DNA of 64,000 nucleotides from Marinobacterium iners DSM 11526 (GTDB lineage Bacteria; Pseudomonadota; Gammaproteobacteria; Pseudomonadales; Balneatricaceae): contig NZ_FNRJ01000004.1 in the NCBI RefSeq assembly GCF_900107855.1, positions 124,001-188,000 on the forward strand, written 5' to 3'. A program made the translations under genes and the position numbers. Each line of letters begins with the position of its first letter. Position 1 is the stretch's first letter. Positions 5,480 through 47,134 of the stretch are shown piece after piece. The notes below the pieces were generated by a model. It searched no databases and was not told where the DNA came from. It saw only the letters and a program-made list of their open reading frames with translations.

Positions 5480-7753
5480 TTAGAATTGAACGTTTATACC
5501 GATATAGGCTGAACGCCCCATACCCGGTACTGCGATGCCCCAGGGGATACCATTGATTGACATGGTACGCCCCTGACCGGTGTATGCACCGCCGGTTGGG
5601 AGCGCATAGCTGCGATCAAACAGGTTTTCGACGCCAAGGTCGAGCCGCACCTGATTCCAGCTGTGGCTGGAGCGCAGGTTGAGCAGGCTGTAACCGGAGG
5701 TGTCAATCTCATTGCGTACATCTGAACCGTCTTTCTTGGAGTCCACAACAACCCATTCCACTGCGTTGTCCCAGCCAGCTTTTTGGTGAGTCAAGGTGAA
5801 GCGGCCGTTCAAAGGCATGACGTTATACAGTGCATCGCCGGTATCGCGGTTTTCGCCGTTGGTATAGTTGATGACGCCCTTGAAGCCCCATTGACCCCAT
5901 GCATTACTGCCTAGCGGTACCTGTGCAGACAGGTCGATACCGTAGAGTCTGGCCGACTGATTCGCGTACTGGAGTACGTTGAACTGATCATCACCCCAGG
6001 CCGGCAGGGCAACAGCATCAATATAGTTATCGACGTGGGTGTAGAAGGGGGTTGCCGTTACATTCCAGCTGCGATCAGCTGCGTGCCAGTCAAAGGTGGT
6101 CGACAGGGTATAGGCTGTTTCCGGTTCGAGGTTTACATCACCCACATAACCGTTGCCGTCACCGACAAAGTTGTTCATGGTGGCGGCCATGGCCCAGCTG
6201 GACCAGGTGTAGCGCTCGTACAGGTTGGGAGAGCGTACCTTGCGCGCCAGTCCCATTTCGATATCCAGCTGGTCGCTGTATTGGTAGCGAGCGAGCGCCG
6301 TCACATCGATATTGTCATCGGTTTGTGAGCGATCCTGTGCATTGAAGGCCGCGGATTCAGCCCCCTGATTTGCCATCATGCTGTAGCCATGCACTTCGTC
6401 TGCGTCCATGCGAACACGCTCATAGCGAACACCCATCAGAGTGGTCCAGCGCGCATCATGCTTAGACTCAAGCTCTGCAAAAAGGGCTGCACGGTCACGT
6501 TGACCATTGTTGATGTTAAGGAAAGTGTCAGGGCCCATGCCACCACCGGAGGCTGTCCAGTAGTCGTCGAGGCGATAGCGCTGCAGTTCAGTACCAACGC
6601 GCAGCAGACGGTCTGAATTTAGATTGATATCGGCTTTCAGGCCCAGGCCGGTGTTTTCACTTTCAGAGTACATCGGCATCCCTGCGGCACATGTATTCAT
6701 CATGCCATCGACCATAAAGCCAATTGGGCTGCAAGGTACGCCAACTGTTGGGTCGGGCGTGTTGGAGAGAGCGCCGTACCAAAAACGTTTATCCGCACCA
6801 AAATCCATAAAGTGATCAACGGTTTCATGGTATGCGGCTGCTTCCATGACCCCCCAGTTGAAATTACGCGTCCATGTAAGGTTCGCAAGCTTTTGGGTGT
6901 TTTCCAACAGATCCATGCGCTGATTGGGATACAGCTGCTCTGGCATGTCCTGGTAGCTGAACCGGGACTCGAACACATTGTCCCCGGCCTTGAAGGCAAG
7001 CCCCAATGCGTGGTTCTGCGTTTCGTAAGCGGTCGAGCCAACTTCATCAAGGCTCAATGTATGATCCAGGGTGCCGGTTTCGACAAAATCCTTGAAGTCG
7101 GCACCTGCGGTATAATTGTCAGCCTTGCTCCACGAGCCACTGTAGTTGATGCTCAGGTCCTCAGTTGCATGAGTGGCACTGAGATGACCACCAACGGCGT
7201 CATTGTTGCTGCGATAAAAGGCGCCAACCTCTCCTTTGGTAATACTGTCATTGCCGGCGTGAGCAAACTCAGGCTCAGGTTTCTCGACAATGATGGTACC
7301 TCCAATGCTGTCACCACCCACACTGACAGGTGAGATGCCGGCATAGACTTTCATCAATCCAATGTTGCTCGGCTCAACGTATGACAGGGGCGGATTCATG
7401 TGGTTGGGGCAGGCCGCAATCAAGTCCATGCCATCCACCTTGATGCGTAGACGGTCGTCTGCAAGTCCACGAATCGAGGGCAAACTGGAAACACCACCGG
7501 CGCCGTTCAGGCTGACGCCAGGCATATCTCTGAGCAGGCTGGCACTATCATTGGTTGCGGCTCGAAGCATGTCAATCACCGCAGGAGACTGCTGTACAGA
7601 ATGGTCCAGTACCTCTGGCGCGGGTTTGGTTACGATGAGCACTGACTCTGCTTGCCCAGGCTCTGCGCAAGCAGCATGAGAAAGTGAAGCACAGGCAATC
7701 GCAGTCAGCAGTTGACGTTGTTTGAACCGGGAGGCTGTGAAGGTGTTACTCAT
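5480..7753 (-). CDS. oprC: TonB-dependent copper receptor, OprC/NosA type
   Basis: This 757-residue outer-membrane receptor has a signal peptide (about residues 1-30, ending A-C-A), a plug (about 50-165) and a 22-strand barrel ending in the expected C-terminal Phe. The plug has C115-P-N-H-M119 and a barrel loop has H314-F-M316. This reproduces the CxxxM plus HxM copper site described for Pseudomonas OprC, which supports copper as the substrate. The start ATG at 7753 has a strong AGGAG seven bases upstream and begins the signal peptide; an upstream ATG at 7828 gives no signal and is unlikely. It is a single-gene unit with its own terminator. A repeat-rich control region lies upstream at 7861-7893. 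Confidence 0.88.
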   Translation of the reverse strand: MSNTFTASRFKQRQLLTAIACASLSHAACAEPGQAESVLIVTKPAPEVLDHSVQQSPAVIDMLRAATNDSASLLRDMPGVSLNGAGGVSSLPSIRGLADDRLRIKVDGMDLIAACPNHMNPPLSYVEPSNIGLMKVYAGISPVSVGGDSIGGTIIVEKPEPEFAHAGNDSITKGEVGAFYRSNNDAVGGHLSATHATEDLSINYSGSWSKADNYTAGADFKDFVETGTLDHTLSLDEVGSTAYETQNHALGLAFKAGDNVFESRFSYQDMPEQLYPNQRMDLLENTQKLANLTWTRNFNWGVMEAAAYHETVDHFMDFGADKRFWYGALSNTPDPTVGVPCSPIGFMVDGMMNTCAAGMPMYSESENTGLGLKADINLNSDRLLRVGTELQRYRLDDYWTASGGGMGPDTFLNINNGQRDRAALFAELESKHDARWTTLMGVRYERVRMDADEVHGYSMMANQGAESAAFNAQDRSQTDDNIDVTALARYQYSDQLDIEMGLARKVRSPNLYERYTWSSWAMAATMNNFVGDGNGYVGDVNLEPETAYTLSTTFDWHAADRSWNVTATPFYTHVDNYIDAVALPAWGDDQFNVLQYANQSARLYGIDLSAQVPLGSNAWGQWGFKGVINYTNGENRDTGDALYNVMPLNGRFTLTHQKAGWDNAVEWVVVDSKKDGSDVRNEIDTSGYSLLNLRSSHSWNQVRLDLGVENLFDRSYALPTGGAYTGQGRTMSINGIPWGIAVPGMGRSAYIGINVQF

Positions 7754-7860
7754 GATGTCTCCTGTGTATTCCCTGATGTGGGTCATGCCACAAGTTTCAC
7801 CTTGTGGTGCGGCATGAGAGATGTCCATAAGGGCGAAAAATTGGAGCTATTCTAAGGGAA

Positions 7861-7893
7861 TGCGACATACCTGACTTGAGACATAATGTCGCA
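7861..7893. promoter_or_regulatory. Candidate operator shared with the CobN/TonB operon (site A)
   Basis: Bases 7877-7893 read TGAGACATAATGTCGCA, a near-palindrome (TGAGACA / TGTCGCA, 3-base centre). A further half site TGCGACA starts at 7861, 16 bp away. On the minus strand this half site is followed by TAGAAT, a plausible -10 box for the copper receptor. The 17-mer matches site B (31731-31747) at 14 of 17 positions. The binding protein is unknown. The rest of the 390-bp gap (7754-8143) shows no gene. Confidence 0.55.
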
Positions 7894-31730: not shown

Positions 31731-31747
31731 TGTGACACTATGTCGCA
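31731..31747. promoter_or_regulatory. Candidate operator upstream of exbB (site B)
   Basis: TGTGACACTATGTCGCA is a near-palindrome (TGTGACA / TGTCGCA around CTA, one mismatch). It matches site A (7877-7893) at 14 of 17 positions. The -10-like TTATAT follows about five bases later and exbB starts at 31802, so a bound protein would cover the promoter. A GGCGCC pair at 31776-31781 and 31796-31801 could also fold over the exbB ribosome site. No cobalamin riboswitch consensus was seen. Confidence 0.55.
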
Positions 31748-31801: not shown

Positions 31802-32368
31802 ATGGATATATTAGTAAAAGGTGGTGTAATAACCTGGATGCTTGTCGCCTACTCGGTCGTGGGATTTTCCATAGTTATATCGGCCTATTTGCGCCTCTTA
31901 AAAGATCGGGGGGCTTACTCAGATCCTCTGGTGCCTGATAATTCTACCGGTGAATACAAAGAGATATTTCAGCGCCTCACGGTTGCACAACAATCAGGCC
32001 TGGATCAGGAATCTCTTCGTGTTCTTGCTCAGCGTTTGATAACCACGCACATACGGTATTTTGAAACCGGGCTAAAAACTCTGAGCGTACTCGCCAATAC
32101 GGCTCCCTTGATGGGGCTTTTAGGCACCATTATTGGCATGATATCGGCATTTCGTGTCATTGAGTCAGAAGGTGCGGGCGTCAATGCGCAGATGCTCGCG
32201 GGCGGTATCTGGGAGGCCATGCTTACAACAGGTGTAGGTTTGGCGGTTGCCTTGCCTTTATTGTTCTTCCTGCATGCATTGGAGTCATTGATTGAAAAGC
32301 ATCATTGGCAGCTATATGTGGCTGTTTCTGAGGTAATTCATGAGCCTGTTGAAAGTCAAGGGATCTGA
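31802..32368 (+). CDS. exbB: ExbB/TolQ-type proton channel protein
   Basis: This 188-residue inner-membrane protein has three helices (about residues 8-28, 93-118 and 137-160). The segment T-A-P-L-M-G-L-L-G-T-I-I-G-M is the family pore motif. With ExbD it uses the proton gradient to energise TonB. It is the first gene of a seven-gene operon with exbD starting 15 bp after its stop. It is shorter than E. coli ExbB (244) because the N-terminal periplasmic part is reduced. Confidence 0.93.
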   Translation: MDILVKGGVITWMLVAYSVVGFSIVISAYLRLLKDRGAYSDPLVPDNSTGEYKEIFQRLTVAQQSGLDQESLRVLAQRLITTHIRYFETGLKTLSVLANTAPLMGLLGTIIGMISAFRVIESEGAGVNAQMLAGGIWEAMLTTGVGLAVALPLLFFLHALESLIEKHHWQLYVAVSEVIHEPVESQGI

Positions 32369-32383
32369 TTATAGGAAAATGCC

Positions 32384-32788
32384 ATGCAGTATTATCCTCG
32401 AAAGCGGTTATCCAATCAGAGTATTAATATAACGCCATTGATTGATATTGTTTTCATTCTTCTGGTGTTTTTCATGCTGACATCTCACTTTATCAATGAA
32501 AAACGATTCGAAGTCAGCTTGCCCGATGCCAAAAGCGGGGATGAAGGAAATATCGATGAGCCTGTGTTCATCAATATAAGTTTGATGGGTCATTTATATC
32601 AGGCTGACCGGTTACTGTCTGATGAACAGTTGGATGCGTTGCTCTTGCAGATGGTTGAAAAGCAACAATCACTGGTACTGAGGGTTGATGAGCGTGCTCC
32701 ATTTGAGCCGGTTATGGCGTTGATGGACAGGGCGAGACAGCAGGGAGTATCAACTATCGGTTTTGCCGTTGAAGAGCCGGTGAGGTAG
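32384..32788 (+). CDS. exbD: ExbD-type energy transducer
   Basis: This 134-residue protein has one helix (about residues 18-38) containing the proton-path Asp21 in P-L-I-D-I-V-F-I-L-L, followed by a periplasmic domain. It works with ExbB to power TonB. It is six bases before tonB, so the three genes are a compact TonB-energising set dedicated to the receptor encoded next. Confidence 0.93.
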   Translation: MQYYPRKRLSNQSINITPLIDIVFILLVFFMLTSHFINEKRFEVSLPDAKSGDEGNIDEPVFINISLMGHLYQADRLLSDEQLDALLLQMVEKQQSLVLRVDERAPFEPVMALMDRARQQGVSTIGFAVEEPVR

Positions 32789-32794
32789 CTGAGC

Positions 32795-33538
32795 ATGATC
32801 TTCAAGGGCGTGCTGCTCTCCTGCCTGATGCATGTGATGTTGACCTGGTTTTTTTTGGACCTGGACTGGTTCAGAGGAGTGACGCACTCACCGGACTATA
32901 CAGCTGAGCCCATATTGGTGGCCGTTTATCAATCGAAGGCACCTCCCCTTCAGGCCCCGTCACCTCCCGTTCAAGCTCCGCCACCTCCCGTTCTGGCTCC
33001 GCCAAGTACCTCATCAGCAGCTGTAGCGGTAGCCACTGAGCAGCCAAAACCAAGCGTCAGGCAAGACAGTATTGTTCAGGAAAAGCCGCACGTACCTGCC
33101 GAGTCTGCACCTTCCCGGAGGCCGACCACGGTTTCTGACATGAAGGAAGATGTCACGGCGTCTGTTGACCAGACAGCAAGCCTTACTGCTGTAACACCGC
33201 CACCATCCGCTGAGTCGGCAGTTCCTGCGCCACCAGTGAATACTGCGCCCAAACCGCTTAAACCCAGTTATGCCCAGCGTCTTACTCAGCGCATCGAGCA
33301 ATATAAAACCTACCCACGCCGCGCCCGAGAGAGGGGGCTGTCCGATGAAGTGCTTTTCAGCGTCAGTGTTAATGACACAGGAGAGATGCAGGCATTTCAT
33401 TGGTTGGAAGGGCATACCGCGTTTCGCACTTCGACGCTGCAGGCGGTGCGCCGAGCCTTGCCCTATCCGCCCGATCCGGGGCAGGCGCCAGTCAGTGTGC
33501 AGGTTCGCATGATCTATTCGCTTCAGGACAGGATCTAA
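32795..33538 (+). CDS. tonB: TonB protein
   Basis: This 247-residue protein has an N-terminal membrane anchor (about residues 5-25), a proline-rich periplasmic spacer (about 50-165, with repeated P-P-V-x-A-P) and a C-terminal TonB domain (about 165-245) containing Y-P-R-R-A-R-E-R-G-L. It carries energy from ExbB-ExbD to the TonB box of the outer-membrane receptor. The receptor gene starts two bases after its stop. Confidence 0.92.
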   Translation: MIFKGVLLSCLMHVMLTWFFLDLDWFRGVTHSPDYTAEPILVAVYQSKAPPLQAPSPPVQAPPPPVLAPPSTSSAAVAVATEQPKPSVRQDSIVQEKPHVPAESAPSRRPTTVSDMKEDVTASVDQTASLTAVTPPPSAESAVPAPPVNTAPKPLKPSYAQRLTQRIEQYKTYPRRARERGLSDEVLFSVSVNDTGEMQAFHWLEGHTAFRTSTLQAVRRALPYPPDPGQAPVSVQVRMIYSLQDRI

Positions 33539-33540
33539 CC

Positions 33541-35808
33541 ATGAAAGGATATAAAAAACTCTGTGCCGCCATGTTGTTGGCGGGTTTGCCGATTGCCGCT
33601 GTACAGGCACAGGAGCAGGTGATTCGGGTGTACTCCTCGACTATCGAGGACCGTTTCGGTGAGGACAGAACTCAACCCAGTTCCACTGTGTCGCTTTCGC
33701 GGGAAGAGATCGAGCAGCAGCATGCGCAGAATCTTCAGCAGGTATTGCAGGCGATCCCCGGCATCACCACGGATCAGTCCGGCGGTGAGGATATCAAGAT
33801 CAAGATCCGGGGGGTCGAGAATCAGCGCTACATGGGTGAGCCGCCGGGCGTGGTGATCGTGATTGACGGCGTGCCGGTGTTTGAGCGCACCGGCAAGGTC
33901 AATATCGATCTGGATAACATCGAGTCCATCGATGTGGTCAAGGGCGGAGCCTCCTATCTGTTCGGTGAAGACGCGCTGGCTGGTGCTGTCATCATCAAGA
34001 CCAAGCGTGGTTATGCGCAACAAGGCGTTTCGCTGGAGCATGAGCGAGGCAGCTTCGGCTATGAGCGCTCCGTACTGAGAGCTGGCGGCGGGACCGACAA
34101 CTTGCAGGCGCATGTTCAGTACGCCGACCGCAGCAGCGATGGTTTCTATGCGTTGGGTAACAGCTGGGCAGAAACCCTGTCGGGCAACATCACCTGGTAT
34201 CCGGATGAGGTTAGCGATCTGAGTTTCGGCTTCGAAAAGTCGGACCGTTATCGGGATCGCAGCGGTTCGGTCAAGGGAGCGACCCAGGCCGCGACCGACC
34301 CCGAGGGCAATACCGCGTCACGTGACTATACCCGTAACTTCGATGTGGATCTTGAACGCCTCAATCTGGCGTATTCACGTGAGCTGAATGATAGCCTGAG
34401 CCTGCATGGCCTGGTCTATCAGTACACGGACGACACCAGCTTCTGGTCCGGCCCGATGAGTTATGATGGCACGGGTGCGCGTACCATTGCGGCGGATGAT
34501 TACAAGTACGATACCGATTATTCCCAGACCCAGCGTGGCCTGAAGCTGGAGCTCAACCACAGCGGCGACCGCCTGGGGACACTGCTGGGGCTGGATCTGC
34601 GCCGGGACAGCACGAACAATGCAGTGCGCGCGCTGAGGGACTATCGCACCTTCTCTCGGGGCGCGACCACGGCTGCGGGCACACTGCTCAGCGAGGATGA
34701 AGGTCAAACCGACACCCAGGCGCTGTTCGTGGAGTTCAAGTATCAACTGGCGCAGGACACCACTCTGACCGCCAATGCCCGCCATGACCGAATTGAGGTT
34801 GAGTACCGAGACCATCTGAGTGACACCGACGCTGACAAGGCCTTCAACGTCAACTCCTGGCGTCTGGGGCTGACCCACGACCTGACCCCGGGCTCTACAC
34901 TGTTTGCCAGTGCCTCCACCGGTTTCAGAACGCCGACGTTGTCGCAGCTGTACCGCACCGATCTCGGCGGCGACCAAGCGGTGGCCAACAATCCGAATCT
35001 GGAACCCGAAGAATCGTTGACCTACGAACTGGGACTTCGTCAGGCTTTCAATCTCGGTGGCTGGCCCAGTGCTCTAAGTGCGTCTGTTTTCCAGGTCGAA
35101 CGTGATGATTTCATTCTTGACACCAGTGGTCAGTACAGCCCGAACAGCGCCAGTCATGATGTGACGGGTGAAGCGGCCATTTACGACAATATAGGTGGTA
35201 CGCGAACGCGCGGTTTTGAGCTCCAGTTAACCACCGAGCTGCATCAGGATTTTGCGTTCGACCTGTCCTATACCTGGCTGCATTCCGTTTTTACCCGCTA
35301 CGACGATTTCTATCAGGCGCTGGGCAACCCCTACGGGCGCTTCGGCTATGTCGATCCGGCCGGTTTCAACGACCCGGTGAACAGCTATACCCTGGTGCAC
35401 TACGACAACACGGGCAACCGGGTGCCGCGGGTATCCCCTCACCAGATCAATGCGAGGCTGCATTGGTTTGGCATCGACAACCTGAAACTGACCACCGAAG
35501 TTGATTACCGCTCCACCGCCTGGGCCGATGAGATCAATCAGGAGAAGTGGGCCGGACGCACGCTGGTGAACCTGATGGCCGAGTACAACCTCAGGGTTGG
35601 CAGCGGTGAGCAAGACAACATTCAGCTATTCATGCGCATCGACAACCTGTTTGACAAGGAGTACTGGGTCATTGCCCGCGGTGTCAACGACAGCAATGGC
35701 AGCCCGGCCACCGGCATGGAATATGACGGCGTCTACAACGCTGAAGACCTGTCCATCATTCCGTCCACCGGTCGCCGCTGGCAGGCCGGTGTACGCTATC
35801 GCTTCTGA
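33541..35808 (+). CDS. TonB-dependent outer-membrane receptor of the CobN-linked operon
   Basis: This 755-residue protein has a signal peptide (about residues 1-23, ending V-Q-A), a likely TonB box near Q-V-I-R-V-Y, a plug (about 45-155) with R-G-V-E-N-Q-R-Y and a barrel ending in R-Y-R-F. The ATG at 33541 starts the signal peptide; a longer frame from 33400 overlaps tonB. It resembles the receptor of the Pseudomonas aeruginosa PA1922-PA1925 cluster (receptor, CobN-like, MotA-like, DUF2149), which is known to respond to zinc limitation. The substrate here (free metal or metallophore) cannot be read from the sequence; no His-rich loop stands out. Confidence 0.9.
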   Translation: MKGYKKLCAAMLLAGLPIAAVQAQEQVIRVYSSTIEDRFGEDRTQPSSTVSLSREEIEQQHAQNLQQVLQAIPGITTDQSGGEDIKIKIRGVENQRYMGEPPGVVIVIDGVPVFERTGKVNIDLDNIESIDVVKGGASYLFGEDALAGAVIIKTKRGYAQQGVSLEHERGSFGYERSVLRAGGGTDNLQAHVQYADRSSDGFYALGNSWAETLSGNITWYPDEVSDLSFGFEKSDRYRDRSGSVKGATQAATDPEGNTASRDYTRNFDVDLERLNLAYSRELNDSLSLHGLVYQYTDDTSFWSGPMSYDGTGARTIAADDYKYDTDYSQTQRGLKLELNHSGDRLGTLLGLDLRRDSTNNAVRALRDYRTFSRGATTAAGTLLSEDEGQTDTQALFVEFKYQLAQDTTLTANARHDRIEVEYRDHLSDTDADKAFNVNSWRLGLTHDLTPGSTLFASASTGFRTPTLSQLYRTDLGGDQAVANNPNLEPEESLTYELGLRQAFNLGGWPSALSASVFQVERDDFILDTSGQYSPNSASHDVTGEAAIYDNIGGTRTRGFELQLTTELHQDFAFDLSYTWLHSVFTRYDDFYQALGNPYGRFGYVDPAGFNDPVNSYTLVHYDNTGNRVPRVSPHQINARLHWFGIDNLKLTTEVDYRSTAWADEINQEKWAGRTLVNLMAEYNLRVGSGEQDNIQLFMRIDNLFDKEYWVIARGVNDSNGSPATGMEYDGVYNAEDLSIIPSTGRRWQAGVRYRF

Positions 35809-35819
35809 GGAGCCTGAGC

Positions 35820-38800
35820 ATGTTGTCGAGAGTGTTGACCGGCCTGGTGCTGTGTCTGTGGGCAACGGCGGCCAGTGCGGCCGATGTGGTGCTGCTGACC
35901 ACCGACTTTGTCTTGGGCAAAAAGCTGGATCAGGTAGCCCGGGCGGCCGATGCCGAAGGAGTGTCTCTGCACTGGCTTGATGTCAGTAATACAGACGCCG
36001 AGGGGCTGGCGGCGGCCATACAGGCGGCCAGACTGATTGTCGTGGATGCGCCCCGTCAGGAGGATATCGCCGAGGTCGAGAGCCGGGCCGGTGAGTACTG
36101 GCGTCGCTTTGCCAGGCCGGTGGTGCATATCAACCGGATGAACTGGATGAGCCGGCTGAGGGCCGAACGGATCGAGTCAGACTTTGCCGAGCGTCTCTAC
36201 GCCTATTATCTGGGCGGACGCGAGCAGAACAGGGCCTACCTGGCTCAGTTCCTGGCGACCTGGCTCAAGGGCGAAGACTGGACGCAGGTGCCTGATGCCG
36301 TGCCGATGCCAGATGGCGCCATCTACCACCCGGATGCGCCGGGCGAGCTGTTTACCGACCTGGCCAGCTACCTGTCATGGTGGCAAGCGCGCATGGGTAA
36401 GGAGTGGCAGGCGTTGCCGGTGATCGGCATGGAAACCAGCTCAAGCTATATCGCCGATGCGCAGAACCGCATGCTCGATGAATTCATTCTGGGTGCTGAA
36501 GCGCGTAACGCCGTGCCCGTCGTTTACTACCGCGATGCACGTAGCCTGACGCCGCCACGCCGTGAAGGTCGTTCCGGCGGTGGGCGTCCGGCAGGGGGCC
36601 GGCCGGGAGCCGGCAAGCCGACTGCTGTGGCCGCGCAGAGCGAGCCGGTCATCGAGCGCAATCCGGGCGATTTCCCCAATCCAAAGGAACTGGCGCCGCA
36701 CCAGTTGGACGAACCGCTGATCACACTGGATGACGAACGGGTCGTCGATGTGATGACCGTCAACACCTTTCTCGGTGTCGGACCGGACCAGCGGCTGGCG
36801 CGCTACCGGGCGCAGAATATGCCGGTACTGAACGTGATCAACTACCGCAACGGCAACCGCGAGGAATACCAGGCCGATCTGGCCGGTATCAGTACCTTCT
36901 ACATCCCGTTCCGGCTGTCGGTGGCGGAGTACATCGGCATTCAGGACCCGGTAGTGTTGTCGACCAATGAGGGTGGCGAGATGGTGCCGATGCCGGAGCA
37001 GCTCGATCTGCTGTTGGGCAAGGCGGTCAAGCTGGCACAGTTGAAACGCAAGGCCAATGCCGACAAGCGGCTGGCGCTGGTGTTCTGGAACACCCCGGCC
37101 GGGGAGCAGAATATCAGTGCGTCCAACATGAACGTGCCGCGCTCGGTCGCTAAATTGATCGAAGACCTCAAGGCCGAGGGTTATCGGCTGGAGAGCCGTG
37201 ACGAACAGGCTCTGATCGACAGCTTCGGTACGCTGTTGCGGCCTTTCTACCGTAAAGAAGCGTTACAGGAACTGACGGCGACAGAACACTGGGCCTTTAT
37301 GCCGCTGGCGGACTATCAGCGCTGGTTTGAGGCGCTGCCGGTCAGCGTGCGTAGCGAGATCACCGGGTTCTGGGGCGATGCGGACAGCAGTGGCTGGCTG
37401 GTGGAGAAGGACGGGGAAAAAGGCTTTGCCATCCCGCGTATTGAGGCCGGCAATCTGGTGATCCTGCCGCAGCCCAAGCGCAGCGACCGGCCCGGCGACG
37501 AGCGCGAAAAGGACCTGTTCCACGACACCAAGGTGCCGCTGCACCATGGCTATCTGGCCACCTATCTGTGGTTGCGCGAAGGCTTTGGCAGCGATGCCAT
37601 CATCCACTTCGGTACCCACGGCTCCCAGGAGTGGACGCCGGGCAAGGAGCGCGGACTCTGGGCCTATGATTATCCCAACCTGCTGGTGGGCAATACGCCG
37701 GTGCTCTATCCCTATATCGTCGACAACATCGGCGAAGCGATCCACGTCAAGCGCCGTGGTCGCGGTGTGGTGATCTCGCACCAGACGCCGGCCTTTTCCC
37801 CGGCTGGACTGGCACCGGAGCTGACGGCTTTGAATGACCTGCTGCGGGAATATCACGGCGTGGATGAGGGTATGGTCAAGGAAACGGCCAAGGCCAACAT
37901 CATCGAAGCGGTGATCGAGCAGAACCTGCACAAGGACGTGGGGCTGGATGAGCAGGCCTGGCGGCAGGATTTCGAAACTCACCTGCGCAGGGTCGAGGAC
38001 CATATCGAGCTGCTGGCCGGAGCCCTGCAGCCCCTGGGACTACACACCTTCGGCGACACCATGACGGACGAACATCGGGCGATGAACCTGATGCTGATTC
38101 TGCTCAAGCCACTGGCCGCTGAGCTGGGGATCGACAACCCGGATGCTCTGTTCGTGGCGGACTATGAGCAGATCAAGCAAACAGAGCCCTACCGCTTCGT
38201 ACTCAGGTATGTGGTGCAGCAGGCCGCAACGGATGCCCTGCCGCCGACGCAGCAGCAGCTGGTCAGGGAAGCACGTCAGCTGGCGGACAACTATGCCGCC
38301 GAAGCGGAAACCCGGGCGCTGATCACCGGTCTGTCCAGCGGATTCATTGATCCGAGCTATGGTGGCGATCCGATCCGCAACCCCGATGCGCTGCCGACCG
38401 GGCGCAATATATATGGCTTCGATCCCAACCGGGTGCCCACCCAGGCCGCCTATGATGCCGGGGTGAAGGCGATGCAGGAGCTGATCGACAACTACAAGGC
38501 GCAGCACGGACGTTATCCGCAGAAGCTGACCTTCACGCTCTGGAGTACCGAGACCATGCGTCATCTGGGCATGCTGGAGGCGCAGATCTTCTGGGCACTG
38601 GGGGTGAAGCCGGTGTGGGATCGTGGTGGCCGAGTGACCGGCATTGAAGCGATTCCGCAGCAGGAGCTGGGGCGTCCGCGCATCGACACCGTGATTTCCC
38701 TGACCGGGCTCTATCGTGACCAGTTTCCGGTGGTGATGGAGCGTTTTAATGAAGCGGTCACCCTGGTGGCGGCGTTGAAGGAGCCGAAAGAACTCAACTT

Positions 38801-39914
38801 CGTCCGTGCCAACACCGAGCGTATTCGTGCAGAGCTGGTGGCGCAGGGCATTCCTGCCGAGCAGGCGGAAAATCATGCGCTGACACGGGTGTTCGGCACC
38901 GAAAGCGGCGACTACGGCACCAAGCTGCCCGAGGCCACGCTGGGATCGGACCAGTGGGAGGAGGGCGACGGCAAGCTGGAGGAACTCTATCTGTCGCGCA
39001 TGTCCTGGGCCTACGGCCCCGATGCCAGCCAGTGGAGCCGCAAGCTGACCGACGCCGAAGGCAAGGTGGTCAACACCTATGCTCAGCACTTGAAGGGCAC
39101 TGACGCGGCGGTGTTCTCGCGCTCTTCCAACCTGCGCGGACTGCTGGATACCGATCATCCGTTCGAGTATCTGGGCGGCATCTCCATGGCGGTGAAATAC
39201 CTGGATGGCGAGGCACCCCAGCTCTATATCTCCAACATGCGCGACCCGCGTAAGGCACGGTTGCAGGATGCGGCCAATTTCATGGCGATGGAACTGAGGT
39301 CGGTCTACCAGCATCCGAACTGGGTCAAGGAGATGATGCAGGAGGACTATGCCGGCACCCTGAACATGCTGAAGACGATCAACAACTTCTGGGGCTGGCA
39401 GGTGATGGATCGCAATGTGGTCAGGGACGACCAGTGGCAGGCTTTCCACGAGGTATACGTCAAGGACAAGTATGAGCTGGGGCTACGTGAGTGGTTTGAA
39501 CAGTCCAACCCCACGGCGCTGGCGCAGATCAGCGAACGCATGATCGAAGCGATCCGCAAGGGCTACTGGGAGGCCAGTGACGAAACCCTGCGTGAGCTGG
39601 TCGAGGTGTATACCGAGATTGCGGCCAAACATGATGTGTACACCGAAAACCGCACCTTTGCCCAGTTCGTGGCTGACAAGGCGGCTGGCTATGGCATCAG
39701 TGCCGCCCCGGCGCCGGATCAGGCCAGCAGTGCCGCCACGCCACCGCCGGAAGGTGCCAATGAGCCTCAGCCCCAGGGCGAGCAGGTTAGCGGCCAGAAA
39801 CTGGAAGAGGTAAGTCAGGAGGTGCAGGACAGTCCACTGGACTACTGGCTGTTTATGCTGTTGCTGCCGATTGCGGCGGGATTCTGGCACCAAGGGCGCC
39901 GCGCCCGTGCCTGA
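35820..39914 (+). CDS. Exported, membrane-anchored CobN-like protein
   Basis: This 1364-residue protein is homologous to CobN, the large subunit of cobaltochelatase, with the hallmark H-F-G-T-H-G-S-Q-E-W-T-P-G-K near residue 596. Unlike true CobN it starts with a signal peptide (about 1-20, ending A-S-A) and ends in a single helix (about 1340-1358) followed by basic residues. It should face the periplasm while held in the inner membrane. A Gly/Arg-rich linker (about 245-270) interrupts the N-terminal part. No cobS, cobT or other cobalamin gene is near. A role in periplasmic metal handling with the TonB receptor is inferred from the operon. GAGGAG precedes the ATG. Confidence 0.9.
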   Translation: MLSRVLTGLVLCLWATAASAADVVLLTTDFVLGKKLDQVARAADAEGVSLHWLDVSNTDAEGLAAAIQAARLIVVDAPRQEDIAEVESRAGEYWRRFARPVVHINRMNWMSRLRAERIESDFAERLYAYYLGGREQNRAYLAQFLATWLKGEDWTQVPDAVPMPDGAIYHPDAPGELFTDLASYLSWWQARMGKEWQALPVIGMETSSSYIADAQNRMLDEFILGAEARNAVPVVYYRDARSLTPPRREGRSGGGRPAGGRPGAGKPTAVAAQSEPVIERNPGDFPNPKELAPHQLDEPLITLDDERVVDVMTVNTFLGVGPDQRLARYRAQNMPVLNVINYRNGNREEYQADLAGISTFYIPFRLSVAEYIGIQDPVVLSTNEGGEMVPMPEQLDLLLGKAVKLAQLKRKANADKRLALVFWNTPAGEQNISASNMNVPRSVAKLIEDLKAEGYRLESRDEQALIDSFGTLLRPFYRKEALQELTATEHWAFMPLADYQRWFEALPVSVRSEITGFWGDADSSGWLVEKDGEKGFAIPRIEAGNLVILPQPKRSDRPGDEREKDLFHDTKVPLHHGYLATYLWLREGFGSDAIIHFGTHGSQEWTPGKERGLWAYDYPNLLVGNTPVLYPYIVDNIGEAIHVKRRGRGVVISHQTPAFSPAGLAPELTALNDLLREYHGVDEGMVKETAKANIIEAVIEQNLHKDVGLDEQAWRQDFETHLRRVEDHIELLAGALQPLGLHTFGDTMTDEHRAMNLMLILLKPLAAELGIDNPDALFVADYEQIKQTEPYRFVLRYVVQQAATDALPPTQQQLVREARQLADNYAAEAETRALITGLSSGFIDPSYGGDPIRNPDALPTGRNIYGFDPNRVPTQAAYDAGVKAMQELIDNYKAQHGRYPQKLTFTLWSTETMRHLGMLEAQIFWALGVKPVWDRGGRVTGIEAIPQQELGRPRIDTVISLTGLYRDQFPVVMERFNEAVTLVAALKEPKELNFVRANTERIRAELVAQGIPAEQAENHALTRVFGTESGDYGTKLPEATLGSDQWEEGDGKLEELYLSRMSWAYGPDASQWSRKLTDAEGKVVNTYAQHLKGTDAAVFSRSSNLRGLLDTDHPFEYLGGISMAVKYLDGEAPQLYISNMRDPRKARLQDAANFMAMELRSVYQHPNWVKEMMQEDYAGTLNMLKTINNFWGWQVMDRNVVRDDQWQAFHEVYVKDKYELGLREWFEQSNPTALAQISERMIEAIRKGYWEASDETLRELVEVYTEIAAKHDVYTENRTFAQFVADKAAGYGISAAPAPDQASSAATPPPEGANEPQPQGEQVSGQKLEEVSQEVQDSPLDYWLFMLLLPIAAGFWHQGRRARA

Positions 39915-39954
39915 TGTGAGCCTGAAGTGAATCTGATCAAAGGAATCAAATAAG

Positions 39955-40461
39955 ATGAACCAACTGGAACAATGGCTGTACAGCATCACCGGCATTTTTC
40001 TGACCCCGGTGTTGCTGGTGCTGATACTGATGTTTGTTTATGCCCTGTTCATGCTTGGGCAGTTTTTGATGGAGTATGTGCAACGACGTACTCGACCCGA
40101 GCGCACCGGGCCACTGGAACGGGTAGCCCGGCATCATGGCCGGATTGATCAGGAACAGCTGGAGCTAGCGCTGCTAAAGCAGACCGAGTGGCCGCGGCTG
40201 ATCAACCGCATCGCGCCCATGCTGGGGTTGATCGCCACCATGATCCCGATGGGGCCTGCGCTGATGGCGGTGGCGGCCGGCAACACCCAGAGCATGGCTG
40301 ACAATCTGGTGGTGGCCTTCTCGGCGGTGATCATCGCGCTGTTGGCGGCGTCGGTCAGCTACTGGATTCTGTCGGTACGCAAGCGCTGGCTGCTGGAGGA
40401 GTTGCACCAGCTGCTGAGCCAGCAAGAGGCGGCATCGGTGCCACTCAAGGAGGCTGCATGA
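39955..40461 (+). CDS. Second MotA/TolQ/ExbB-family proton channel protein
   Basis: This 168-residue protein has a first helix (about residues 12-38) and two C-terminal helices (about 82-105 and 115-140). Its A-P-M-L-G-L-I-A-T-M-I-P-M-G segment aligns with the ExbB pore motif of the upstream gene. Its stop overlaps the DUF2149 start (ATGA). It is thus a second, diverged energiser within the same operon, in the position of PA1924 of P. aeruginosa. Confidence 0.9.
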   Translation: MNQLEQWLYSITGIFLTPVLLVLILMFVYALFMLGQFLMEYVQRRTRPERTGPLERVARHHGRIDQEQLELALLKQTEWPRLINRIAPMLGLIATMIPMGPALMAVAAGNTQSMADNLVVAFSAVIIALLAASVSYWILSVRKRWLLEELHQLLSQQEAASVPLKEAA

Positions 40462-40784
40462 CGACACAGCGCCGACCCCTGTCGATCCTGCGTGACGACG
40501 AGGAAGATCCGATCACCAGCGTGGTCAACCTGATCGATGTGTTTCTGGTGATCATCGCCGTGCTGCTGATCGTCATCATCCAGAACCCGCTCAATCCTCT
40601 GACCAGCGATTCGGTGGTCGTGGTGAAGAACCCGGGGCAGGACAACATGGAGATGATCGTCAAAGAGGGCGAAACGCTCAAGCACTACACCTCCTCAGGC
40701 GAAGTAGGCGAAGGCGAAGGCGTGAAGGCTGGCATCACTTACCGGCTGCAGGACGGCTCCATGGTGTATGTTCCCGAGGGCTAG
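40458..40784 (+). CDS. DUF2149 protein with ExbD-like membrane helix
   Basis: This 108-residue protein has one helix (about residues 24-42) with N-L-I-D27-V-F-L-V-I-I, closely matching the P-L-I-D-I-V-F-I-L-L of ExbD in the same operon, including the Asp. A small periplasmic domain of about 65 residues follows. The coupled MotA-like gene upstream suggests that the two make a proton channel like ExbB-ExbD. The family has no established function. A stem (CCGGCCG / CGGCCGG, 40834-40862) lies downstream without a T run. Confidence 0.85.
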   Translation: MTTQRRPLSILRDDEEDPITSVVNLIDVFLVIIAVLLIVIIQNPLNPLTSDSVVVVKNPGQDNMEMIVKEGETLKHYTSSGEVGEGEGVKAGITYRLQDGSMVYVPEG

Positions 40785-47020: not shown

Positions 47021-47134
47021 GGCGGTTCTGCCGGTCCTCTCGCAACGATACACCGTGAACCTGGTCAGGCCCGGAAGGGAGCAGCCACAGCGGTCGACTC
47101 GTGTGCCGGGATGTGGCTGGTGGAACTGCCACCC
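47021..47134 (+). ncRNA. ffs: 4.5S signal recognition particle RNA
   Basis: The apical part has the conserved G-G-T-C-A-G-G-C-C-C-G-G-A-A-G-G-G-A-G-C-A-G-C-C core with the GGAA tetraloop and symmetric and asymmetric loops, and G-T-G-T-G-C-C-G-G-G-A-T-G on the 3' side. The ends pair (GGCGGTTC with GAACTGCC). The RNA binds Ffh for membrane protein targeting. Ends are approximate by a few bases. The downstream 140 bp to the DUF3124 stop is AT-rich with T runs near 47165-47180 that could end transcription. Confidence 0.95.

Follow-up and report, generated by a model that had tools for sequence, protein, structure and literature searches.

An exported CobN-like chelatase of Marinobacterium iners DSM 11526 and its probable proton motor of MotA/ExbB-type and DUF2149 proteins

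Chelatases of class I work with AAA+ partners that are driven by ATP (available part of PMC7689651). HmuS, an exported relative, is encoded in the hmuYRSTUV operon of Bacteroidota (gene order from the accessible text of PMC10434189) and is a published haem de-chelatase; the accessible text of PMC12583661 draws HmuU and HmuV as energisers of the receptor (HmuR in B. thetaiotaomicron), calls the role of HmuT unclear, and reports that recombinant HmuS without its membrane helices completes one or two turnovers with no need of ATP. The P. aeruginosa PA1922-PA1925 operon comprises receptor, CobN-like and motor-type genes under zinc control (PMC4542158, PMC8531726), and control by Zur is described in the available parts of PMC4542158, PMC8456098, PMC8531726 and PMC13083405. 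Plasmid pSZ77 of Geobacter lovleyi carries CobN beside ExbB-ExbD-TonB and receptors, and no CobS/CobT was found in the strain (available part of PMC3403914). Here we describe an operon for an exported CobN-like chelatase, a second MotA/ExbB-type protein and a DUF2149 protein, located in a stretch of 64,000 nt of M. iners DSM 11526 (NZ_FNRJ01000004.1, positions 124,001-188,000, forward strand), hereafter the window.

The seven-gene operon put forward in the initial annotation is confirmed, with all genes on the + strand and all with Pfam matches. It starts with a first motor, which consists of an ExbB-type protein (31802..32368; PF01618, 87.5 bits) and an ExbD-type protein (32384..32788; PF02472, 90.1 bits), and continues with a TonB-type protein (32795..33538; PF03544, 37.3 bits), a TonB-dependent receptor (33541..35808; PF00593, 180.1 bits; PF07715, 80.5 bits), the CobN-like chelatase (35820..39914; PF02514, 968.7 bits), the second MotA/ExbB-type protein (39955..40461; PF01618, 28.0 bits, cut-off 22.9) and the DUF2149 protein (40458..40784; PF09919, 98.9 bits), predicted to have one membrane helix and a small periplasmic part; the last two genes overlap by four bases. 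Like hmuYRSTUV, the operon combines a receptor, an exported and anchored CobN-like protein, a MotA-type protein (HmuU) and a DUF2149 protein (HmuV), and the active-site residues His538, His1209 and Glu1212 of HmuS align with His600, His1113 and Glu1116 of the window chelatase. Unlike hmuYRSTUV, it has its own ExbB-ExbD-TonB, no HmuY-like gene in the operon, no HmuT (DUF2162-type) match in the window, and no Met-rich insertion in the chelatase (where HmuS has residues 742-930, the window protein has just 802-826). Plasmid pSZ77, compared by description only, differs in that the available text mentions neither a second motor nor DUF2149.

The second MotA-type protein and DUF2149 probably constitute a proton motor of the ExbB-ExbD kind with the exported, anchored chelatase as its client. 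With the motors ExbB-ExbD-TonB, TolQ-TolR-TolA, MotA-MotB and ZorA-ZorB the pair shares a MotA-type subunit, alike in Pfam family and fold, and a one-helix partner with an invariant Asp, whereas the client proposed here is an enzyme rather than TonB, TolA, the flagellum or a defence system. That the second motor works on the CobN-like protein had been suggested in the initial annotation, and the computational evidence, i.e. co-occurrence, archaeal loci without receptor or ExbD, the tree of the chelatases, and an anchor and a motif shared among them, makes this the best-supported reading, ahead of the published receptor drawing. In the literature searched, whose coverage excludes most subscription journals, no proposal of a motor for a chelatase was found.

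The linkage of the genes was examined in four sets: the best 80 of 525 confirmed DUF2149 loci from a genome scan (scan loci), 18 loci of Pseudomonadota, among them that of the window, 20 short loci of archaea, and six plasmid loci out of nine matches; these sets overlap slightly, and three places are present twice (L037/L047, L038/L254, L046/L243). A constant MotA/ExbB-type partner, as expected of a motor, was found within 300 bp of DUF2149 in 80/80 scan loci and 18/18 Pseudomonadota loci, with distances taken from domain positions (a count by frames gave 79/80, one neighbour being masked by an overlong frame). The same held for 19/20 short archaeal loci, the remaining one (L186) having the domain at 480 bp with masked bases between, and a MotA-type partner is present in 5/6 plasmid loci; the one clear exception is a Paracoccus plasmid (L261), where DUF2149 adjoins a fragment of a receptor and both MotA and CobN are absent. 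After the MotA-type gene, CobN is the most constant partner. It lies within 10 kb in 69 of the 80 scan loci and in 18/18 Pseudomonadota loci; of 11 scan loci without a local CobN, seven belong to genomes with CobN elsewhere and four to genomes that show none. Among 299 Pseudomonadota genomes, DUF2149 occurs in 11 (M. iners included) and a CobN relative in all 11, with 92 CobN-positive genomes in total; among 80 archaeal genomes the corresponding numbers are 23, 23/23 and 43. The hypergeometric probabilities of this co-occurrence are 5e-6 (Pseudomonadota) and 3e-8 (archaea), with centre genomes left out and kinship uncorrected.

These loci also bear on the published drawing (PMC12583661, available part), by which the pair would serve as an additional source of energy for the TonB-dependent receptor. 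A receptor is indeed found within 10 kb in 48/80 scan loci and in 14/18 Pseudomonadota loci, and ExbD is missing from the flank examined in some sets (ExbD in 15 of the 80 scan loci and in three of the 18 Pseudomonadota loci). Against this, 15 archaeal loci among the scan loci carry the set with neither receptor nor ExbD, ten of them with CobN, and the archaea concerned lack an outer membrane. Furthermore, the window and others already encode ExbB-ExbD(-TonB) in the same operon; a separate ExbD in the window and in 14 other DUF2149-CobN or DUF2149 loci indicates that two motors coexist. Energising the receptor was rejected as a general role on account of the 15 archaeal loci, and we consider it decidedly unlikely as an explanation of the pair.

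In another explanation, which we regard as unlikely, the pair and a DUF2162-type protein (HmuT type) would form an inner-membrane transporter of metal or ring into the cytoplasm, with the chelatase only handing over its product. A DUF2162-type gene is present in 58/80 scan loci and in 20/20 short archaeal loci, DUF2162-MotA-DUF2149 stands apart from CobN in two archaeal genomes (G441, G397), and haem transport by HmuTUV is presumed in a P. gingivalis paper (available part of PMC13227078). However, no DUF2162-type match was found in 17/18 Pseudomonadota loci (window included; the gene is present in one) or in 18 CobN-holding scan loci, and a transporter leaves the anchor and the motif of the chelatase unexplained. 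In most scan loci (L107, L054 and others) an HmuT-type permease with a P-C-P-V-C motif precedes MotA; two DUF2162-type proteins tested with Pfam both matched PF09930, and a literature search for the name DUF2162 gave no paper.

The chelatase as client of the motor is further supported by its predicted location. The window chelatase has a signal-peptide-like stretch (MLSRVLTGLVLCLWATAASA) at its N-terminus and, at its C-terminus, a hydrophobic segment (residues 1340-1359, 39837..39896, +) followed by basic residues, so that it should be a periplasmic protein tethered to the inner membrane. Among 77 full-length CobN proteins of motor loci, a hydrophobic segment was scored at the N-terminus in 73, at the C-terminus in 72, and at both ends in 68. 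Of the C-terminal misses, two are second copies of CobN in Cupriavidus (L109 and L111, of which the former groups with motorless proteins in the earlier of two quick trees), one is a frame that overruns (L068), and the other two are the window protein and that of L089, with hydrophobic ends that score below the cut-off, the window's segment only just; the N-terminal misses are L034, L065, L083 (frame starts upstream) and L103. The comparison set comprised 73 motorless proteins with no motor match in their flanks, i.e. 30 from Pseudomonadota (the best PF02514 matches), 27 of the 30 from archaea and 16 of the 18 others, with flanks of at most 1.5 kb in 57 of the 73; the end of L160 is cut, which leaves 72 testable. 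A C-terminal hydrophobic segment was found in 0/72 motorless proteins with an uncut end (L223, see below, counted apart), and the remaining three archaeal proteins have both DUF2149 and the anchor, as does L222. Only the C-terminal test separates the groups, because several motorless proteins also score an N-terminal hydrophobic stretch (e.g. L192, L195, L197, L209). In a quick tree of 75 proteins, a single branch (Shimodaira-Hasegawa-like approximate likelihood-ratio support, SH-aLRT, 99) divides 51 exported proteins, including the Bacteroides and Prevotella HmuS types, from 24 motorless CobN/BchH proteins; an earlier quick tree had 46 exported against 24 motorless proteins. In these trees the root was not inferred, and many rows deviate in composition.

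The motor-linked chelatases also share a short motif. In most of them V-x-G-Y-x-M or a near form precedes the anchor within an otherwise low-complexity linker, for example VSGQKL in the window (V1323-S-G-Q-K-L1328; 39786..39803, +), VEGYKM in many Desulfobacterota and VEGYEM in methanogens. Of 104 tails examined, 99 with a predicted helix were kept; with a pattern set after viewing the tails, V-x-G-x-x-M/L/V was found in 75/82 main-type proteins (shuffled linkers: mean 7.7, maximum 15), in 13/13 archaeal proteins, and in 1/23 motorless proteins. We infer that this juxtamembrane motif may dock to DUF2149, with VSGQKL as the proposed docking peptide of the window chelatase.

For the motor subunits, the helix of DUF2149 reads N24-L-I-D27-V-F-L-V-I-I, as originally described, and its Asp27 (codon at 40536-40538, +) is the candidate proton-path residue. 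The conservation that such a role demands was found, with N24 and D27 invariant in 53/53 aligned DUF2149 proteins and N-x-x-D present in 136/137 matched stretches (135/136 loci); the single stretch without it is a C-terminal-only match in L094. The further proposal that DUF2149 mirrors ExbD holds for the single N-terminal helix and the conserved Asp. An hhalign comparison placed the two Asp residues in register over 23 columns (E 0.08), with a probability of 0.7% that leaves sequence homology unsupported, and it gave no match to ExbD for the periplasmic part of DUF2149. Searched against Pfam up to E 0.001, DUF2149 matched PF09919 and not PF02472 (ExbD/TolR), and the best match of its profile among PDB sequences was an unrelated enzyme (E 0.013); that DUF2149 works like ExbD is an analogy backed by gene linkage. 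The second MotA/ExbB-type protein gave no NCBIfam match. Its structural model (predicted local-distance difference test, pLDDT, 92.4) has ExbB and TolQ as top structural neighbours with Z about 10, a value that helical bundles reach by chance, and Foldseek gave E values of 0.013 or higher. The DUF2149 model is reliable for helix 18-42 only, and its periplasmic part is largely below pLDDT 50.

In the mechanism we infer, the receptor, energised by its own ExbB-ExbD-TonB, would import a metal-tetrapyrrole into the periplasm, where the CobN-like protein would bind it. DUF2149 would touch the juxtamembrane linker and the C-terminal helix of the chelatase, and ion flow through the second motor would cycle the chelatase by force transfer, such that the metal leaves the ring and the product is released; the motor would hereby stand in for the step that CobS/CobT or ChlI/ChlD drive with ATP, a step that is unavailable outside the cytoplasm. 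Metal would then be pulled from a carrier delivered by the receptor, the direction of reaction that the initial annotation had in mind. A passive role of the pair, in which DUF2149 anchors the chelatase and Asp27 supplies ring protons without any force, is very improbable. Iron removal from haem does take up two protons per ring (PMC12583661, available part). Nevertheless, protons are free in the periplasm, and the ExbB-type partner beside DUF2149 in every whole locus exceeds the needs of an anchor.

Several observations weigh against a motor for the chelatase. HmuS without its neighbours turns over once or twice and needs NADH, not ATP (PMC12583661, available part), so the chemistry does not strictly require a motor; that anchor-less HmuS stops at one or two turnovers also counts in favour of the motor. 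A structural Z near 10 is no proof, since the MotA-type protein is a helical bundle; DUF2149 outside its helix gave no usable model, and its homology to ExbD is unsupported by profile comparison. The pair occurs in four metagenome-assembled genomes in which no CobN was seen, and our confidence is slightly lowered by G441 (L240) and G397 (L241), where CobN lies elsewhere in the genome. The juxtamembrane motif is found in 0/17 chelatases of a second type (below), and one protein, L223 (G211), is an exported CobN relative with an N-terminal signal and without a motor. L223 also has neither the C-terminal anchor nor the juxtamembrane motif, and its gene is followed by BtuF, BtuC, BtuD and CbiA-type genes. 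Among ten full-length close relatives of L223, anchor and MotA are present in 10/10 and type-2 DUF2149 in 9/10, and the partial L252 has all three; in L249, MotA is present and DUF2149 was not found, a methyltransferase-like frame comes next, and the locus ends soon after. As judged from these sequences, L223 appears to have lost motor and anchor together, in one case.

L223 belongs to a second type of CobN-MotA-DUF2149 set (L222, L223, L034-L036, L045, L046, L242-L252), which often has a cobalamin riboswitch and BtuF-type genes; its DUF2149 is divergent with a different C-terminal part, and was missed by the Pfam cut-off in G123.

On a wider scale, the proton motive force may drive the enzyme throughout the exported class I chelatase branch of bacteria and methanogenic archaea, with MotA-DUF2149 as the extracytoplasmic counterpart of the AAA+ proteins CobST/ChlID, mostly through V-x-G-Y-x-M docking, and with the same chassis tuned to corrinoids (B12 riboswitch), haem (hmu) and other metalloporphyrins (Zur or other control); we hold this tentatively, at a little short of even chances. 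The pairing of an exported chelatase with an apparent proton motor of its own, from bacteria to methanogenic archaea, suggests that extracytoplasmic metal-ring chemistry may be powered by the proton gradient of the membrane rather than by ATP. If so, hmuU/hmuV of Bacteroidota from gut and mouth, the PA1922-PA1925 cluster with its zinc control and the exported CobN genes of methanogens would share one mechanism, DUF2149 would become a defined motor part, and ExbB-type motors would have a further use with an enzyme as client, next to TonB, Tol, flagella and defence.

The nearest solved structure to the window chelatase is HmuS (9d26, 451.9 bits), and ChlH and CobN score 359.6 bits; for the site-1 haem ligands Met79 and His254 of HmuS, the N-terminal domains of HmuS and the window chelatase gave no alignment. 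The chelatase also matches the NCBIfam CobN model NF004644 (1613.1 bits, cut-off 1248), which is why such genes are automatically named cobaltochelatase. A canonical cobaltochelatase was rejected, because no CobT match was found in the M. iners genome (CobS was not searched for); likewise, CobT gave no match in 29/32 genomes with the set. In contrast to a cytosolic CobN without signal peptide or anchor, and to CobN/BchH/ChlH with their ATP-driven partners, with which it shares the large subunit PF02514, the window type is predicted to be exported and anchored, and lies across the branch from the 24 motorless homologues.

No substrate was assigned from the receptor family, since the NCBIfam models of receptors, those for haem and siderophores among them, all scored below their own cut-offs for the window receptor. 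From the HmuS-like His1113 of the chelatase, a ring of the porphyrin type seems likelier than a corrin. The residue aligned with HmuS His1209 is His in the window, L032, L003, L033, L042, the Azospirillum protein, two HmuS types, and 4/6 BchH proteins named by NCBIfam; Asp is found in 17 riboswitch-flagged rows, two of them flagged on weak matches (L044, L250), in L205, which is named CobN, and in six related motorless Pseudomonadota proteins that were not scanned with NCBIfam. Substrates seem to differ by chelatase branch. A cobalamin riboswitch was detected at the Rfam threshold in 6/8 loci (L034, L035, L036, L046, L222, L223; not in L045 or L003) and in 4/7 further loci (L048, L050, L052, L054), and a profile from those ten riboswitches matched on the operon strand in 37/80 scan loci, none of them archaeal; CbiZ, CbiK and CobO proteins adjoin three of the sets. 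For the window operon, control by a B12 riboswitch was ruled out at the Rfam threshold, with no cobalamin riboswitch match in the window. On plasmid ABSP7_p4 of Azospirillum brasilense (L263), CobN-MotA-DUF2149 occurs with an ATP-binding cassette importer, a receptor and nikR nearby, which hints at a nickel-linked version.

In the M. iners genome there are two relatives of CobN, and a MotA-DUF2149 pair adjoins each of them. The second set, on contig C11, is arranged as receptor-CobN-MotA-DUF2149 with a divergent methyltransferase gene, and its CobN is 38% identical to that of the window over 1293 columns. Boxes were scored with a Zur consensus. A Zur-like box is present at this second locus and at its relatives L033 and L042, whereas the best match before the window operon has 4 mismatches in 13 bases (no chance level computed), and Zur control of the window operon was rejected on this basis. 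The Zur-type kinship to PA1922-PA1925 thus belongs to the second locus, which has this layout together with a Zur-like box and a divergent methyltransferase, rather than to the window operon, for which a relation to PA1922-PA1925 had been claimed.

An operator-like palindrome (TGTGACACTATGTCGCA, 31731..31747) lies 55 bp 5' of the first start codon of the window operon, and in G004 it is likewise conserved in front of this operon. An exact copy in the M. iners genome is located between a receptor cluster with Slam-dependent lipoproteins and another receptor gene. This cluster (L003:1-6401; C11, about 322000-328400) comprises a Slam-type gene, two Slam-dependent surface lipoproteins, one of which matches a hemophilin domain at its cut-off, and a large haem-type receptor, and it adjoins the exact palindrome and the second CobN set. 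A copy with one mismatch (window 7877-7893) lies before a TonB-dependent receptor gene (5480-7828, -) with a C-P-N-H-M stretch, for which the models of haem and of copper receptors give similar scores, neither reaching its cut-off; the G005 counterpart of this receptor (74% identical) also has a palindrome site, beside a MarR/SlyA-type gene. With at most one mismatch, the M. iners genome has eight strand matches (five places) against 0 for the reversed pattern, compared with 7 against 3 in G004 and 2 against 6 in G005. The palindrome as a candidate regulator site is a lead only, and its neighbours fit a haem- or metalloporphyrin-like substrate without deciding the matter. Further palindrome places in the M. 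iners genome, on C37 and C32, fall within or next to genes that show no evident connection, and a site on C44 of G004 precedes a RegB-type kinase gene. The sole Rfam match in the window is a gene for the small signal recognition particle RNA (47029-47125, +).

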